Of a stretch of 64,000 bases of DNA, positions 37,145 through 64,000 are shown piece by piece. Each line of letters starts with the position of its first letter. Positions within the stretch are counted from its first letter, which is position 1. The position numbers and the translations under genes are program-made. Source of the stretch: Microbacterium sp. zg-Y1090 (GTDB lineage Bacteria > Actinomycetota > Actinomycetes > Actinomycetales > Microbacteriaceae); assembly GCF_030246945.1 (NCBI RefSeq), contig NZ_CP126742.1, positions 2,914,001 to 2,978,000 on the forward strand. Direction: 5' to 3'. A model generated the notes under the pieces. It was not told the origin of the DNA, searched no databases, and worked only from the letters and a program-made list of their open reading frames with translations.

Positions 37145-39184
37145 ATGAGATTCAACGCCCAACGACGGCAGACATCGCACCGCGCACGCGCTGCACTGGC
37201 CATCCCCTTCGCGGCGGTCCTCGCCGCGGGACTCATGGCCGGGCCGGCATATGCCGAGACCACCGATCCGCAGACCGACCCCTCTGCACCCGCTCCGTCG
37301 GCGACGCCTCAGCTGTCCGAGGCGGAGACCGAAACCGAAACCGGGGGCGGGAACGAAGCCGAGACCGAGACCGGCGCCGATGACGCGGTATCGGTGGCAT
37401 CCCACGCCACGCAGACCGTGCAGCGCAGCGCCGTGCCGACGAGGGCGACCGGGTTCCAGCTGCGGTATGCGTTCGCGCCCGGCGTGCAGCCTGCGAGCCC
37501 GCAGAACGAGTCCGACGTGGCCGCGGAAAAGGCATATGACTGGTCGGATGCCGGCATCCGCTACCTGGCGTGGGACTACCCCATGCCCGATGACGGCCAC
37601 CACGAGGTGACCTTCACCGCCCAGCTGATCGATTACGGAACGCTCACCGACTACACCGTCCGATACACCTCGACCGTGAACCGGACGGCCGGGTCGCTGA
37701 GCGTCGAAACGGACTGCGCCATCCTCCGAGACGGCGCACCGGTGGACTTCGAGAACGAGTCGCCTTTCGCCTGTGACGGGGCCTCGGCTCAGGGAGCATC
37801 GGGAGCCGTGATCGCCTCCGCGGACGTCGCGCTGCACAACTGGTCCACCATCACCGGCATCATCGACGTGCGCAATGCGGGGGACGGACCCGTCATCTCC
37901 CTTGCCGACGGCACCTTTTCCACCGCGAACCAGCAGAAGCGCATCGTGATGAACGGCGAGGCCTGGTACCCCGTCGCCGTGAGCGTGGAGGAGAAACGTG
38001 CTCTTCCCTACGCGACGATCCCCAACGGGGGAACTCTGACCTGGTCCGCCGCGCAGCAGAACTTCGGTCGCGAACAGTCCGAGCCCGACACCCACGCGCA
38101 GGCTTCCTTCGCCTACCGCATTTTGCTCGATGGCAAGGGAACCCCGTACTGGATCAGCGGCTGGGCGGAGAACTACAAGTACCTGTCGGGCAGCGAGCCC
38201 TCCGCCACCTGTTCGATCTACCTGGGCGACCCGAACACGACCGGTGTGCGCGTGCTGGAGAACACGCCGTTCACGTGCGAGCCCACCGGAATGAGCAAGC
38301 CGAACGTCCACACCGACGATGACACCACGTTCCAGGTGCGGATGGCCAGGGTGGACACGGTGGACAGCGACCAGGATGCCAGGAACAACGGCATCGTCGA
38401 CGCCTGTGGCGAGCATGGGAACGGCTGCATCCAGGCCATCGGTGAGCCGACGCTCGACACGGCCGAGGCAGGGAACCCGCGGACCATCGCCACCCAGCCA
38501 CACACGGCGGGTTCGGACGAGCCCCAGGAGTGGAAGTTCGAGCGCACCTGGTCGCAGGAGGTCACGGACTCCGTCGAGCAGACCTTCGGCATCAAGCTCA
38601 GCTACGAAGCAGAGTATGAGCCGATGCCGGGCGAGACCTTCAAGCAAGGAATCGAGTTGAGCTCCGAGACGAGCTACGGCTATGACCTCACCAAGGGGCT
38701 CGAATACTCGTTCTCGAGTTACCCGGAGATCCCGTTCGGCGCCGTCGGACGAATGGTGCAGTACGAGGCCTGGGACCTGTACACGGGTGAGCTGTACTTC
38801 TTCGGCGAGGGCGACTCGTGGTACCGCCTCACCGGGACCACCATCAAGATTCCGGTCGACGCCTCGATGTTCGGCGCCGAATCCCAGACGTTCGACGGAC
38901 ACGTGGATGCGCAGGAGGCCCCGGTGATCGGCGGCGTGGAGTTCCGCTGTTCGTGGAAGGAATCCGCGAGGGCGAACGTCCTCCTCCACAACTCGACCGT
39001 CGAGAAACTCACTCTGTGCGACATCCCCACGAGCTGGGGCGACGAGGTGCCCCGCATTCGAGGGCTCGACGTCGACCCCGACCTGCTCAAGGACGCCCGC
39101 GCGGTGCTCGCCGACGACCTCGCTGCGCTGAAAAAAGAACTCGACAAGCGCAAGAGCGAGCTCGCCGAACTGCGTCGGGGGTAG
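37145..39184 (+). CDS. large secreted protein, possible aerolysin-like pore-forming region
   Basis: A 679-residue secreted protein. The signal peptide ends at AYA (about 37), followed by a Thr/Glu-repeat acidic linker (ETETETGGGNEAETETG). Residues 100-450 are beta-rich with Trp/Tyr and three or four Cys pairs. Residues about 460-575 have long polar strands rich in alternating Ser/Thr/Glu/Tyr (TWSQEVTDSVEQTFGIKLSY, then ELSSETSYGYDLTKGLEYS, then GAVGRMVQYEAW), a layout like the insertion-loop region of ETX/MTX2-type toxins. The C-terminus (645-679) is a charged coiled coil. It is not matched to a named family by eye; an unrelated beta-sandwich is possible. An AGGGAAC site precedes the ATG. Confidence 0.7.
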   Translation: MRFNAQRRQTSHRARAALAIPFAAVLAAGLMAGPAYAETTDPQTDPSAPAPSATPQLSEAETETETGGGNEAETETGADDAVSVASHATQTVQRSAVPTRATGFQLRYAFAPGVQPASPQNESDVAAEKAYDWSDAGIRYLAWDYPMPDDGHHEVTFTAQLIDYGTLTDYTVRYTSTVNRTAGSLSVETDCAILRDGAPVDFENESPFACDGASAQGASGAVIASADVALHNWSTITGIIDVRNAGDGPVISLADGTFSTANQQKRIVMNGEAWYPVAVSVEEKRALPYATIPNGGTLTWSAAQQNFGREQSEPDTHAQASFAYRILLDGKGTPYWISGWAENYKYLSGSEPSATCSIYLGDPNTTGVRVLENTPFTCEPTGMSKPNVHTDDDTTFQVRMARVDTVDSDQDARNNGIVDACGEHGNGCIQAIGEPTLDTAEAGNPRTIATQPHTAGSDEPQEWKFERTWSQEVTDSVEQTFGIKLSYEAEYEPMPGETFKQGIELSSETSYGYDLTKGLEYSFSSYPEIPFGAVGRMVQYEAWDLYTGELYFFGEGDSWYRLTGTTIKIPVDASMFGAESQTFDGHVDAQEAPVIGGVEFRCSWKESARANVLLHNSTVEKLTLCDIPTSWGDEVPRIRGLDVDPDLLKDARAVLADDLAALKKELDKRKSELAELRRG

Positions 39185-59081: not shown

Positions 59082-59911
59082 GCGCCGGCCTCGTCGTGGT
59101 GATGGTGGTGGTGGGAGTCTTCGGCATCCGGTGCGCCGACCACGACGAGCCGGCCGCCCGCCCGCAGCACCTCGACGGGTGCGCCGTACAGGTCGGTGAG
59201 CACGCGCGAGGTGAGAACGTCCTCGGGGCTTCCCAGGGTGAAGCGCCCGCCAGCGATGTAGAGGATGCGGTCGACCGCCGACAGCACCGGGTTGATGTCA
59301 TGGGTGACCAGCAGCACCGCGGCATCCGTCCGCCTCCGGTGGGCGTCGATGAGCCCGACGACCGCCTGCTGGTTGGCGAGGTCCAGGCTGGTCAAGGGCT
59401 CGTCGCACAGCAGCAGCCGGGGGTCGTCGGCCAGGGCCTGCCCGACGCGCAGCCGCTGCTGCTCACCTCCGGAAAGCAGCCCGACCGGCCGGTCGGCGAA
59501 CGCGCGGGCGCCGACGGCGTCGACGAGCGCGTCCACACGGGCGCGGTCGCCGCGGCGCGGGATCGGCAGCCCGAAGCGGTGGCCGTCGATTCCGAGGGCG
59601 ACGAGGTCACGACCCCGCAGGGGGGTCTCCGGCGGCAGCGGGCGCTGCTGCGGGATGTAGCCGATGGCGCGGTTGCCGCGGCGCTGCACCGGCCGGCCGA
59701 GCGCCTCGATGCGCCCCGCGCTGAGAGACTCCAGTCCGAGGATCGCCCGCAGCAGGGTGGTCTTTCCCGAGCCGCTCGGGCCGAGTACGGCCAGCAGCTC
59801 GCCCGGCTGCACCTCGAGGTCGAGCCCCGACCACAGGTCGCGGCCGTCGCGGCGCAGGGCCGCCCCGCGGATGCGCAGCGGCGGCGTGGCGGCCGACGCG
59901 GAGCCGCTCAC
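59078..59911 (-). CDS. znuC: zinc/manganese ABC transporter ATP-binding protein (ZnuC type)
   Basis: A 277-residue ABC ATPase: Walker A GPSGSGKT (about 44-51), signature LLSGGEQQRLRVGQAL, Walker B LLLCDEPLTSLD and H-loop LLVTHD. The C-terminus carries six histidines (DSHHHHHHDEAGA), a likely zinc buffer. The GTG start overlaps the znuA stop (GTGA); the frame upstream is znuA read out of frame. Confidence 0.93.
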   Translation of the reverse strand: MSGSASAATPPLRIRGAALRRDGRDLWSGLDLEVQPGELLAVLGPSGSGKTTLLRAILGLESLSAGRIEALGRPVQRRGNRAIGYIPQQRPLPPETPLRGRDLVALGIDGHRFGLPIPRRGDRARVDALVDAVGARAFADRPVGLLSGGEQQRLRVGQALADDPRLLLCDEPLTSLDLANQQAVVGLIDAHRRRTDAAVLLVTHDINPVLSAVDRILYIAGGRFTLGSPEDVLTSRVLTDLYGAPVEVLRAGGRLVVVGAPDAEDSHHHHHHDEAGA

Positions 59912-60891
59912 GCGTCCAGCGCCGCGGCGAGAGCGGCGATGTTGTCCTGCATCCACTCAATGTACGTCGTGTCGTCCGGGAGCGTCTCGGTCATCTCCAC
60001 GATCGGGAGCCCGTCGGATGCCGCGGCGTCGATGATCTGCGTCGTCTCGGCGCCGCCGGTCTGCGCGTTCACCACGACCACGGCCACGTCACCGGAAGCG
60101 AGGATGTCCAGCGCCTCGAGCAGTGTCGCGGGGGGCACGTCCTGCCCCTCCTCCACCGCTTCGCTGAAGGCGGCGGGGGTGCGGTCGACGAGTCCGGCGG
60201 CGGCGGCCAGATACGCGGCGACCGGCTCGGTGACGAAGGCGCCTTCGCCGTTGTGGGCTGCGGCCAGGTCGGCCAGGTCGGCCTCGAGCCCTTCGATGCC
60301 GTCGGCGAAGCCGGCCAGGTTGTCCTGGAAGACGGCGGCGTCGTCGGGGCGCAGGTCGGTGAGCGCGTCGGCGATCGCCTCCGCCACGTGCTCCACGGTG
60401 TGCGGGTCGTACCAGACGTGCTCGTTGAAGCCCTTGACGTGGTCGTGGTCGTGATCGTGATCGTGATCGTGATCGTGATCGGCGTCGTCGGCCTCGTCGT
60501 GCCCGGCGTCGTCCGGCCACTCGGCCGACTCGCGCACGGCGGTGATCACGGGGGCATCCGACCCGCTCGCCTCGATCAGGGCGTCGATGAAGGGGTCGTA
60601 GCCGCCGCCGTTCTCGATGATGAGGTCGGCGCGCTGGACGGCGAGCTGGTCGCGGGCGCTGGCCTCGTAGGCGTGAGGGTCCTGCGCGGTCGACGACACG
60701 ATGGCGGTGACGTCCACGGCATCCCCGCCGATCTCCTCGGCGATCTGCGCCCAGACGCTCGTGGATGCCACGACCTGCAGCACGCCGCTGCCGGACGCGT
60801 CGTCCTGCTCGCCCCCGGTGCCGGCGCAGCCGGCGAGCACGAGCAGAGAGGCGGCGCCGAGCGCGGCGACGGAGAAGGTCTTGCGGATCAT
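59908..60891 (-). CDS. znuA: zinc ABC transporter substrate-binding lipoprotein (ZnuA type)
   Basis: A 327-residue A-1 solute-binding protein. Lipobox VLAGCAG (Cys about 22). The metal ligands are seen as DPHAYEASARD, EHVWYDPHTVEHVA, a Glu/His region later and the C-terminal Asp motif. Between them is a His-Asp run (DHDHDHDHDH), the zinc-collecting loop of ZnuA proteins, encoded by hexamer repeats at 60439-60480. First gene of the operon, with a Zur box at 60913-60927. Confidence 0.93.
   Translation of the reverse strand: MIRKTFSVAALGAASLLVLAGCAGTGGEQDDASGSGVLQVVASTSVWAQIAEEIGGDAVDVTAIVSSTAQDPHAYEASARDQLAVQRADLIIENGGGYDPFIDALIEASGSDAPVITAVRESAEWPDDAGHDEADDADHDHDHDHDHDHDHVKGFNEHVWYDPHTVEHVAEAIADALTDLRPDDAAVFQDNLAGFADGIEGLEADLADLAAAHNGEGAFVTEPVAAYLAAAAGLVDRTPAAFSEAVEEGQDVPPATLLEALDILASGDVAVVVVNAQTGGAETTQIIDAAASDGLPIVEMTETLPDDTTYIEWMQDNIAALAAALDA
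60439..60480. repeat. hexamer repeat coding the ZnuA His-Asp loop
   Basis: Seven perfect or near-perfect 6-bp units on the plus strand, gtggtc twice then gtgatc five times. Each codes His-Asp on the minus strand, so slippage would change loop length without a frameshift. Confidence 0.85.
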
Positions 60892-60912
60892 GGGAACGAG
60901 TCTATGCGCTAC

Positions 60913-60927
60913 TGATAATCGTTCTCA
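60913..60927 (-). promoter_or_regulatory. Zur box upstream of znuA
   Basis: TGATAATCGTTCTCA on the plus strand, an imperfect palindrome matching the actinobacterial/Bacillus Zur consensus TGATAATNATTATCA in about 12 of 15 positions. It sits 22 nt before the znuA ATG, where bound Zur would block transcription. Confidence 0.75.
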
Positions 60928-60962
60928 ACTTGGCGGGTCCCGAGATTCGCGTACCCCGCGAC

Positions 60963-60989
60963 TAACGCGCCCTCGCATCCGGCCGATAG
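60963..60989 (+). promoter_or_regulatory. sigma-28 (FliA/SigD)-like promoter of flagellin
   Basis: TAAC, a 15-nt spacer and GCCGATAG match the flagellar sigma consensus TAAA-N15-GCCGATAA with two mismatches. Transcription would start near 60996, giving a leader of about 70 nt before the flagellin ATG. Confidence 0.7.
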
Positions 60990-60998
60990 GAGATTCCA

Positions 60999-61060
60999 GG
61001 AGTCCACGGACGGACTCCGGGGTCCAGGACGGGCCCCGCACGATCCCCACTCACGGAGGA
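60999..61060 (+). promoter_or_regulatory. flagellin leader with two GGA-loop hairpins, likely CsrA sites
   Basis: Hairpin 1 (60999-61018): GGAGTCC, loop ACGGAC, GGACTCC. Hairpin 2 (61019-61037): GGGGTCC, loop AGGAC, GGGCCCC. The ribosome site CACGGAGGA (61052-61060) holds a third ANGGA. In B. subtilis hag, CsrA binds one GGA hairpin and the ribosome site, and FliW relieves it. FliW is encoded at 63127-63498; csrA is not in the window. Confidence 0.65.
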
Positions 61061-61065
61061 ACACC

Positions 61066-61941
61066 ATGGGAATGCAGATCACCACCAACGTGTCGGCGCT
61101 CAACGCCTACCGCAACCTGTCCAGCACGCAGAACGACCTGTCGAAGTCGCTCGAGAAGCTCTCGAGCGGTCTGCGCATCAACCGTGCTGCGGACGACGCC
61201 GCCGGCCTCGCGATCTCCGAGGGACTGAAGTCCCAGGTCAACGGCCTCAACGTCGCCCAGCGCAACGCCCAGGACGGCATCTCGGTCATCCAGACCGCAG
61301 AAGGCGCCCTGACGGAGGTCCACTCGATCCTCCAGCGCATGCGTGACCTCGCGGTGCAGGCCGGCAACGGCTCGAACAACGCCGAGTCGCGCACCGCGAT
61401 CCAGACCGAGGTCACCCAGCTGACCGATGAGCTGGTTCGCATCGCGGACTCGACGAACTTCAACGGCATCAGCCTGCTGAAGGGCGGCGACGCGCTGAGC
61501 TTCCAGGTCGGCGCCAACGGCGAGGCCTCGTCGCAGATCACCGTCGCCACGGCGGACCTGAAGGATGCGCTGGCATCCATCACCGCCATCACCTACGGCG
61601 CGGACACCGCCTCTTCGACGCACACGCCGGACGCGACGAACTTCAAGTTCGACTCGGCCGTCAACGCGGCACTGGCGATCACGGCGATCGACACGGCGAT
61701 CGAGAAGGTCTCGACCTCTCGCGCCGACCTCGGTGCGGCGCAGAACCGCATGGAGTCGACCATCAACAGCCTCGCCGTCTCGGCCGAGAACCTGTCGGCC
61801 GCGAAGAGCCGCATCACCGACACCGACATGGCGTCGGAGATGGTCAAGTACACCGCTGCAAACATCCTGTCGCAGGCCGGCACCGCCATGCTCGCGCAGG
61901 CGAACCAGTCGACGCAGGGCGTTCTGCAGCTGCTGCGCTGA
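61066..61941 (+). CDS. flagellin
   Basis: A 291-residue short flagellin. The N-terminal D0/D1 domain (about 1-145: ITTNVSALNAYRNLS, LSSGLRINRAADDAAGLAISE, LQRMRDLAVQAGNG) and C-terminal D1/D0 (about 205-291: NRMESTINSLAVSAENLSAAKSRI, ANILSQAGTAMLAQAN) are complete. The variable central domain is very short, so filaments should be thin and smooth. The start is the first ATG with GGAGGA 5 nt upstream; MQITTNV two codons later is the alternative. Controlled by the sigma-28-like promoter and the hairpin leader. Confidence 0.97.
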   Translation: MGMQITTNVSALNAYRNLSSTQNDLSKSLEKLSSGLRINRAADDAAGLAISEGLKSQVNGLNVAQRNAQDGISVIQTAEGALTEVHSILQRMRDLAVQAGNGSNNAESRTAIQTEVTQLTDELVRIADSTNFNGISLLKGGDALSFQVGANGEASSQITVATADLKDALASITAITYGADTASSTHTPDATNFKFDSAVNAALAITAIDTAIEKVSTSRADLGAAQNRMESTINSLAVSAENLSAAKSRITDTDMASEMVKYTAANILSQAGTAMLAQANQSTQGVLQLLR

Positions 61942-62037: not shown

Positions 62038-63102
62038 ATGACATCCGTTCCGCACCTCGCCCCCCGCCTGCGCTACCTCGCCGGGCGGGCGATGCGGCTC
62101 GATGCGGCATCCCTGTGGACGCGGGCACGCGCGGCGGGTGCCCGCCACGACCGCAATCCGGTCGCGGTCGCCGCCGACATGATGTGGGAGGCCGGCGTCC
62201 ACGGCGTCGGGTTCCAGGACTACATCGACTACGACTTCGCGATCCTCACCCGCGAGGAGCGCGCCACGTACATGACCAACCCGGTCTCGAACCGCTTGTC
62301 CCTCACCTTCGACGACCCCGCCTACCGGCACGTCTTCCACGACAAGGTCGAGTTCAACCGCGTGTTCGATGCGCATCTGCAGCGGGAGTGGCTGGTGCTG
62401 CGCGAGGACAACGCAGACGAGCTGCGCGCCTTCGCCGACAGGCACGGCGTGATCGTCACCAAGGAGCCGCTCGGCCACCAGGGCCGGGGCGTGCACCGCT
62501 ACCACACCGACGCCGTGACCGACTGGTCGGCATTCCACCGGGGGCTGCTCGCGCGGGGTGAGATCCTCGTCGAAGAGGTCATCCGCCAGCACGAAGACCT
62601 GGCCGCCCTCTGCGCCGGCACCGTCAACACCACCCGCGTCACCGCATTCTTCGACGGTGAGACCACCCACATCCTCGCGATGGCGCAGAAATTCGGCCGG
62701 GGCGCGGTGAGCGACCAGAACACATTCGGCGGGTTCTACGCGATGCTCGACGAGCGTGGGCGGGCCACCGGCGCGGGTTACGACTCCTGCAACCGCGTGT
62801 ACGAGACACACCCCGACAGCGGCGTGCGCATCTCGGACTTCGAGCTCCCGAGGTTCGACGAAGTGGTCGCCTTCGTGGATCGCGTCGCACGCGTGGTCCC
62901 CCAGGTGCGCTACGTCGGCTGGGACATCGCCGTCACCGCCCACGGGCCGGTGCTCGTCGAAGGCAACTGGGCCGCGGGCGTGTACGAGAACAAGCCCAGC
63001 GCCACCGGCATCCGCACGGGCCACAAGGACCGTTACCTCACCGCGATCGGCGCGGCGAAGCCCGTCTCGCGGCATCGCACCGGCGAGCGCGTGGCCGCCT
63101 GA
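62038..63102 (+). CDS. ATP-grasp enzyme, sugar-transfer-associated type
   Basis: A 354-residue protein with an ATP-grasp fold of the sugar-transfer-associated class (ATPgrasp_ST). Marks are FHDKVEFNRVFDAHLQREWL, VTKEPLGHQGRGVHRY (the nucleotide loop), EILVEEVIRQHEDLAAL, TVNTTRVTAFF and the C-terminal VRYVGWDIAVTAHGPVLVEGNW, which carries the metal-binding Asp and Glu. The substrate is unknown; the family is seen in polysaccharide and glycopeptide clusters. AGGAG precedes the ATG. It lies between flagellin and FliW, so modification of flagellin or of a surface glycan is conceivable, but that is inference. Confidence 0.85.
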   Translation: MTSVPHLAPRLRYLAGRAMRLDAASLWTRARAAGARHDRNPVAVAADMMWEAGVHGVGFQDYIDYDFAILTREERATYMTNPVSNRLSLTFDDPAYRHVFHDKVEFNRVFDAHLQREWLVLREDNADELRAFADRHGVIVTKEPLGHQGRGVHRYHTDAVTDWSAFHRGLLARGEILVEEVIRQHEDLAALCAGTVNTTRVTAFFDGETTHILAMAQKFGRGAVSDQNTFGGFYAMLDERGRATGAGYDSCNRVYETHPDSGVRISDFELPRFDEVVAFVDRVARVVPQVRYVGWDIAVTAHGPVLVEGNWAAGVYENKPSATGIRTGHKDRYLTAIGAAKPVSRHRTGERVAA

Positions 63103-63126: not shown

Positions 63127-63498
63127 TCAGTTCAGGATGGCCCGCACGGGCAGATCCTGCCCCTCGAGGATGACCTGAGCGGCGTCGCCGGTGCGACGGT
63201 TCAGCACCACCGGCGCCAACAGGTTGACCCCCACGCCCTCGTCGGTCATCTGCGCGACGAGGAGCAGCTGCGCATCGCCGGCCGACGTGAGCCCGAGGCG
63301 GCCGGCCTGTGCGTCGGAGAGCACGGGCGCATAGTCGGGGACGACGTCGCGGGGATCGACGAGGAACAGACGCACTGCTGGATCGTCGACGGACCACATC
63401 GCGAACAGTGCGGCGGAGCCCTCGACCGGATCGAGCTCGAACGCCGTGTGCGGAGCGAGCCCGGGAGGCGGGGCGCCGAACCGCAGCGCGACGGTCAT
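63127..63498 (-). CDS. fliW: flagellar assembly factor FliW
   Basis: A 123-residue FliW. FELDPVEGSAALFAMWSVDDPAVRLFLVDP and the family motif EGVGVNLLAPVVLNRRTGDAAQVIL are clear. FliW binds flagellin and CsrA and so links flagellin pool size to its translation. It overlaps flgL by 4 nt (ATGA). The usual next gene, csrA, is absent: only 24 nt separate fliW from the convergent ATP-grasp gene. Confidence 0.93.
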   Translation of the reverse strand: MTVALRFGAPPPGLAPHTAFELDPVEGSAALFAMWSVDDPAVRLFLVDPRDVVPDYAPVLSDAQAGRLGLTSAGDAQLLLVAQMTDEGVGVNLLAPVVLNRRTGDAAQVILEGQDLPVRAILN

Positions 63499-64000
63499 CG
63501 CAGGAAGTCCATCAGGGTCGGTTGCAGGACGCGCCCCGTCACCGCCAGAGCCGATCGGTACACGAGCTCCTGGGCTTGCAGCTTCACCAGGACCTCCACC
63601 GTGTCGACATCCTCCACTGCGGCGCGACGCGCCTCGAGCGTGACCGTGGAATCCAAGGTCGCCTCCTTCGCCCGCTCGATCTGCGACTGTCGGGCGCCGA
63701 CGGCACCCTGCACCCCGAGCATAGTGTTCACGTGCTGATCGATCTGGCCGAGCCGGGCGCCCACGTTCACGCCCGCGCGCAGGTCCGCGGCGATCTGGTC
63801 GACGAGGGCGAACACCGAGTCCGCTCCTGTGCCGAAGACCTGCCCTCCGTCCGCGTCCACCCGCACCGTCTCGCCGTCGGAGACGCGGCGGCGCACCTCG
63901 GATCCGGGCACCCCGCTGAAGGAGTAGTCCGCGGCGAAGGCTCGCGCGTCCGACGTGCCGGCGAACACTGAACGTCCTCGCAGATCGGTGTTCGCCTGAG
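63495..64000 (-). CDS. flgL: flagellar hook-associated protein FlgL, 5' end outside window
   Basis: The C-terminal 167 residues of a hook-filament junction protein; the frame is open to the right edge. QANTDLRGRSVFAGTSDARAF matches the conserved QANT...FAGT core, and the flagellin-like C-terminal helices (QSQIERAKEATLDSTVTLEARRAAVEDVD, VLVKLQAQELVYRSALAVTGRVLQPTLMDFL) end the protein normally. It is followed by overlapping fliW, the common flgK-flgL-fliW order. Confidence 0.93.
   Translation of the reverse strand, partial: QANTDLRGRSVFAGTSDARAFAADYSFSGVPGSEVRRRVSDGETVRVDADGGQVFGTGADSVFALVDQIAADLRAGVNVGARLGQIDQHVNTMLGVQGAVGARQSQIERAKEATLDSTVTLEARRAAVEDVDTVEVLVKLQAQELVYRSALAVTGRVLQPTLMDFLR

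Follow-up and report, generated by a model that had tools for sequence, protein, structure and literature searches.

In Bacillus, CsrA blocks the ribosome-binding site of hag and FliW counters CsrA via a C-terminal extension; a CsrA dimer can bridge sites 10 to 63 nt apart (both from excerpts of PMC7652899). The flaA leader of Campylobacter jejuni has two stem-loops with ANGGA in the loop, the second of them over the ribosome-binding site, with gel shift and footprint data. In other Campylobacter species the flaA stem-loops have compensatory changes, and FliW is found in place of antagonist sRNAs (both from excerpts of PMC4894983). In the Clostridioides difficile fliC leader a pair of sites is predicted, each in a predicted hairpin, and the second one covers the Shine-Dalgarno sequence (excerpt of PMC11898703). 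We found no study in the open PMC literature of CsrA acting on the flagellin leader in flagellated Actinomycetes.

We analyzed the flagellin leader of Microbacterium sp. zg-Y1090 in a window of 64,000 nucleotides and compared it with leaders from the same genus, class and phylum. Because Campylobacter flaA has the same two-hairpin plan, we regard this leader as a variant of a flagellin-leader plan that is already known, and it is highly likely, judging from sequence, to be the RNA arm of a FliW-CsrA-flagellin homeostasis switch. It fits the C. jejuni flaA system in its two-hairpin plan and in the presence of FliW, and it resembles B. subtilis hag (PMC7652899) in having two CsrA-type sites, one over the Shine-Dalgarno sequence, and a CsrA with a C-terminal extension. 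The two-site layout of C. difficile fliC is also alike, although a reporter there needed the second site only (excerpt of PMC11898703). Unlike Campylobacter, in relatives of this species the second stem takes in the start codon and its loop is long, the clade of this species has an extra hairpin, and the phylum is different. Unlike B. subtilis, csrA lies after flhA and not after fliW, one hairpin is in tandem, and the stems and loop are others. The features of the locus, in window coordinates, are as follows.

60963..60989, + strand: probable sigma-28-type promoter, TAACG, 14 nt, GCCGATAG; called from the pattern and its position before hairpin 1
60999..61018, + strand: hairpin 1, a conserved CsrA-type site; stem 60999-61005, loop ACGGAC 61006-61011, stem 61012-61018
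61019..61037, + strand: hairpin 2, a lineage-specific tandem copy; stem 61019-61025, loop AGGAC 61026-61030, stem 61031-61037
61044..61047, + strand: TCCC, a weak counterpart, 4 bp long, of the sequence with which the start codon region pairs in relatives
61053..61060, + strand: ribosome-binding site ACGGAGGA with A-N-GGA; its ACGGAGG is kept across the flagellin leaders of the genus
61066..61941, + strand: fliC, flagellin, 291 aa (PF00669, PF00700)
62038..63102, + strand: ATP-grasp gene (PF14397), convergent to fliW
63127..63498, - strand: fliW, 123 aa (PF02623), 24 nt from the end of the ATP-grasp gene at 63102
63495..64000, - strand: 3' part of a flgL-like gene that runs off the window end (PF00700, 23.8 bits against a cut-off of 23)

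The original prediction had described two adjacent hairpins with 7-bp stems, loops ACGGAC and AGGAC, and a further ANGGA at the ribosome site, and this description and its coordinates proved accurate. Hairpin 1 has arms GGAGTCC and GGACTCC around ACGGAC, with seven Watson-Crick pairs as read from the letters of the leader; hairpin 2 has arms GGGGTCC and GGGCCCC around AGGAC, with seven pairs including one G-U. The stretch CACGGAGGA (61052-61060) stands upstream of the fliC ATG at 61066. GGA starts are spaced 19 nt apart from hairpin 1 to hairpin 2 and 28 nt from hairpin 2 to the ribosome site, both inside the bridging range cited above (excerpt of PMC7652899). Both hairpins form when the leader is folded in RNAfold (-37.5 kcal/mol and a z of -1.93; 7 of 200 shuffles did as well), with pair probabilities of 0.96-1.0. 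A long arm-swapped hairpin built from hairpins 1 and 2 was rejected as the ground state (-23.7 against -34.4 kcal/mol). In the whole window there are five A(N)GGA-loop hairpins with at least seven pairs on the + strand, including these two, and one on the - strand; random 64-kb Markov-1 sequences have a mean of 0.8 per strand (maximum 4), and none of 40 such sequences had two within 30 nt. The other such hairpins in the window are at 38958, 40774 and 3684 on the + strand and at 37221 on the - strand. None of the Rfam 15 families matched at gathering score in six loci; the only match to the leader region of this genome was below threshold and on the opposite strand.

The protein partners of the proposed switch are present. 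The position of fliW near the flagellin gene, 24 nt from the convergent ATP-grasp gene, was as predicted; it is the genome's sole match to PF02623, and we know of no link between the ATP-grasp gene and this system. The start of fliW is overlapped by 4 nt by the gene behind which it stands, which is like flgL, a name that rests on its place and the weak PF00700 match. The prediction was also right that no csrA lies beside fliW. The sole csrA match in the genome starts at contig position 3001422 (PF02599, 81 bits; the contig is 3.07 Mb and the window spans 2914001-2978000), 18 nt after flhA ends and 23.4 kb beyond the window, so that a missing or replaced csrA is rejected. The supposition that csrA normally follows fliW and had been displaced here did not hold for this genus: csrA comes directly after flhA in 29 of 30 csrA-centred and in all 30 flhA-centred loci, two sets that share genomes. 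Its separation from fliW is therefore usual, and nothing is missing. The exception is one genome (G032), whose locus has no flhA; there csrA is on the opposite strand from flagellin and about 1.1 kb upstream of it. Another genome (G001), with a flagellin starting MGLQ, has fliW about 3 kb from csrA, and in Actinosynnema the two genes are adjacent (PMC9019756, from one table).

The closest solved relatives by sequence are chain D of 5dmb for CsrA and chain A of 5dmb for FliW. Arg44, described as an important, RNA-contacting residue of CsrA (excerpts of PMC7652899 and PMC4066749), is kept in all 30 loci of one genus set and in 29 of 30 of the other, including the CsrA of this genome, in which the 53-position domain is followed by about 40 residues. 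A draw of 149 genus genomes contained 37 with flagellin, 38 with csrA and 38 with fliW. The csrA and fliW genomes are the identical 38, and the 37 with flagellin lie within them; the additional genome is 79% complete.

We examined conservation of hairpin 1 in leaders from several sets that partly share genomes, so that their counts are not independent. Flagellin was present in 105 of 366 genus genomes searched. In each of the 105 leaders an A-N-GGA occurs between positions -72 and -30, and at the best site 97 have an unbroken stem of at least four pairs; as background, such a stretch holds A-N-GGA in 486 of 4900 windows taken at random and, for other ORFs, in 19 of 118 leaders (16%). Upstream A-N-GGA was also found in 59 of 60 named actinobacterial flagellin leaders and, in a class-wide draw with flagellin in 46 of 394 genomes, in 52 of 54 leaders. 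For a GGA-loop hairpin (6-nt loop, at least four pairs), the counts are 35 of 37 in the first draw and 49 of 60 among the named leaders, compared with shuffle means of 0.80 and 1.23; in random stretches, GGA-loop hairpins of at least four pairs were found in 62 of 3568. The unbroken stem is missing in 2 of 37, 11 of 60 and 17 of 54 leaders, respectively (37 of the 54 class-wide leaders have it), often through one mismatch at the third pair, as in several of the class-wide leaders. Single named leaders from Acidimicrobiales and Ilumatobacteraceae carry the hairpin, and in flagellin leaders of other phyla it occurs in 11 of 20, against a shuffle mean of 0.25. Some genomes have several flagellin copies (L062, L069, L070 (Dactylosporangium), G785, G746, G827), and many of these copies, not all, have an ANGGA hairpin leader of their own.

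The stem of hairpin 1 changes with compensation. We aligned 70 distinct sites that were selected by ANGGA, with pairing not a criterion, so that the invariant loop of this alignment is by construction; in leaders with several ANGGA sites the 3'-most cluster was used, and one named leader without ANGGA (L095) was left out. Stem cells were paired in 87.6%, compared with 64.5% in shuffles; there were 118 cells with double changes (44.5 in shuffles), and the covariation score was 0.543 (0.154 in shuffles). None of 500 shuffles reached any of these three values. Sliding the stem by one column lowered the paired cells to 49.8 and 56.9%. The number of pairs with a double change, six, is not exceptional (4.7 in shuffles; reached by 51 of 500). 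At the ribosome site, ACGGAGG is present in all 105 genus leaders, and an A at the matching place was found in 11 of 70 other GGAGG sites (ORFs in flagellar loci) and in two of six in the window. These sequence comparisons make it very probable that hairpin 1 and the ANGGA of the ribosome site are CsrA sites of a FliW-CsrA-flagellin switch. With csrA present in the genome and the loop GGA kept among close relatives, neither of the two findings that the original prediction had named as counting against it was made.

Hairpin 2 has a much narrower distribution. Of the 105 genus leaders, 12 have another GGA-loop hairpin downstream of hairpin 1 and before the ribosome site, and 93 lack it. From the promoter-like box to the hairpin-1 loop there are 18-19 nt in the seven tandem leaders that match the box pattern and 17-19 nt in single-hairpin leaders, whereas hairpin 1 is 49-50 nt from the ribosome site in tandem leaders and 28-34 nt in single-hairpin leaders. 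These distances indicate that about 20 nt, one hairpin, were inserted between hairpin 1 and the ribosome site. Hairpin 2 is as far from the ribosome site as the lone hairpin is in single-hairpin leaders. In a tree of FlhA from 29 of 30 genomes (G091 was dropped, its gene being in two pieces; 17 of the 93 single-hairpin genomes were included), the 12 tandem genomes form one branch with a support of 100/100. In a tree of 55 flagellin proteins they do not form one group and five changes are needed; the flagellin of this genome (61066-61941) is placed with those of three single-hairpin genomes that have another cluster type, whereas the FlhA tree and the leader put the genome in the tandem clade. 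We prefer the FlhA tree because the variable middle part of flagellin may have been exchanged or recombined between genomes. We read hairpin 2 as a probable single gain by a duplication of about 20 nt, retained since, with a deviating pentaloop.

It is quite possible that CsrA binds hairpin 1 and the ribosome site only and that hairpin 2 is a by-product of the duplication or a spacer that has lost binding: its loop, AGGAC in 11 of the 12 leaders and AGGAA in one, has no base between A and GGA, and the covariation is thin, with two pairs altered on both sides among seven distinct sequences, a number reached by 100 of 500 shuffles. Against such a loss, GGA and a stem of at least seven pairs are kept in 12 of 12, and 93.7% of stem cells are paired, compared with 86.2% in shuffles (2 of 500 as high). 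That hairpin 2 may also bind CsrA is the least sure part of our explanation. The three-site switch of the original prediction is supported for hairpin 1 and the ribosome site; the third functional site is inferred only, because most of the genus lacks hairpin 2 and its loop departs from A-N-GGA.

By extension from Bacillus and Campylobacter, CsrA binding, repression and partner switching would proceed as follows. When flagellin is in excess, it would hold FliW and leave CsrA free. Free CsrA would bind the loop GGA of hairpin 1, close to the mRNA 5' end; the second RNA-binding face of CsrA would occupy the ribosome-site ANGGA, keeping the ribosome off. Once flagellin is exported, FliW would bind CsrA and repression would end. 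In the clade of this species, the copied hairpin 2 would give CsrA one more possible anchor. A more elaborate scheme, speculative and on balance unlikely, is that the tandem leader is a three-site switch in which a CsrA dimer would bridge either hairpins 1 and 2, with the ribosome site left open, or hairpin 2 and the ribosome site, causing repression. The duplication would then shift the repression threshold or turn the mRNA into a sink for CsrA. In many actinobacteria, under this scheme, the ribosome-site GGA would be displayed by a stem that closes off the start codon, which would couple CsrA binding to exposure of the start codon. The leaders of this genus, 93 with one hairpin and 12 with two, are a natural series for relating the number of CsrA sites to the response.

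The promoter bears on a second alternative, that hairpin 1 is mainly a 5'-end stabilizer of an abundant mRNA, its stem guarding against decay and its loop GGA being incidental. Of the 105 genus leaders, 99 have a pattern of T[AT]ACG/C, 13-14 nt, and GCCGAT or TCGCGA at 17-19 nt ahead of the hairpin-1 loop; this is an uncontrolled count, with a pattern drawn up after the leaders had been viewed. The call at 60963..60989 uses what we take to be the sigma-28-type consensus. The presumed promoter would start the mRNA a few nucleotides before hairpin 1, at a near-constant distance, as suits a stabilizer. However, such a role does not call for A-N-GGA in the loop, which is retained even as the stem varies, and a second ANGGA is retained at the ribosome site. 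We consider this explanation improbable as the main role, but hairpin 1 could be both stabilizer and CsrA site. A transcription attenuator or terminator is suggested by the strong GC-rich stems between promoter and gene and is very improbable, as there is no T run and no terminator-like site in 60850-61120.

A FliA-like sigma gene, at contig position 2980525, scores 125 bits where the family cut-off is 189.6. Flagellins starting with MGLQ (e.g., L005, L009 and L031) are a second flagellin type, with a TCGCGA box instead of GCCGAT. The upstream neighbor of the flagellin promoter, on the opposite strand, encodes a ZnuA-type zinc-binding protein with an alternating His-Asp run (59908-60891, - strand).

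A covariance model of the leader was built from single-hairpin leaders only, 43 hand-picked from 85 distinct leaders, with the leader of this genome and three other tandem leaders excluded. Its score was 40.9 bits for the leader of this genome and 24.2 for the second-best place, with 150 of 2094 first-look candidates scored. Five lower-scoring places (at most 24.2 bits) were inspected as other possible targets and had no clear GGA-loop hairpin leader; the model spans spacer, ribosome site and ATG, and targets unlike that plan would be missed. In a draw of 346 genomes from the phylum, the model matched 16 under stricter filters and csrA was found in 65; six of the 16 have csrA, and a flagellin start was recognized behind five of the 16 matches. 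The modeled motif was not recovered in most csrA-bearing genomes of other classes in this draw. Our claim is for flagellated Actinomycetes, in which these sequences are evidence that a flagellin checkpoint of the Bacillus/Campylobacter type probably operates too.

Outside the genus, the ribosome site may be presented by a second stem. In M[GS]LR flagellin leaders (L033-L112 and L328-L384, from Nocardioides and others), GACTC precedes the ribosome site where the gene starts AUGAGUC, and GACCC, GACCT or GGCCC precedes it where the gene starts AUGGGUC. RNAalifold, given no structure, returned exactly hairpin 1 and this start-codon stem from 26 of 32 AUGRGUC leaders (two near-copies, L364 and L371, one leader without a fitting element, L367, and three with long spacers, L331, L057 and L368, were left out). 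In these 26 leaders 97.7% of the cells of the stem were paired, with double changes confined to one pair (UA in 14, CG in 10, one UG and one unpaired). When start regions were swapped among the 45 M[GS]LR leaders, the best stem score fell from 13.79 to 11.98, with 13.12 as the highest of 1000 swaps; for the full set of 108 distinct leaders it fell from 12.61 to 11.21, with 11.74 as the highest of 300. ACTC is carried by 15 of 15 AUGAGUC leaders. A 2x2 table of unambiguous rows (13, 0, 3, 4) gave P 0.007, uncorrected for kinship and without 2 + 2 rows with both motifs and eight with none; 13 of the 45 leaders have other codons. In the wider leader collection, L342 has no called start, and L343 and L349 are duplicates. 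We take as a new lead that, outside the genus, this stem may close off the start codon, with the ribosome-site GGA remaining in its loop; the covariation of the stem amounts to one base pair.

Within the genus the start-codon stem is not convincing: its score is 12.36 compared with 11.73 for shuffled upstream sequence, and scores of at least 11 occur in 87 of 105 leaders compared with 71.6%. In the leader of this genome the best such stem is of the TCCC/GGGA type with at most four pairs, and in RNAfold the stretch at 61044..61047 preferably pairs with the ribosome site. The stem is absent from the 20 leaders of other phyla (8.95 compared with 9.96). Four leaders from Fontibacillus and Paenibacillus (L081, L084, L098 and L104) have GGAGG in the loop of a perfect 6-bp hairpin with arms AATCAT and ATGATT, a different way of displaying the ribosome site.
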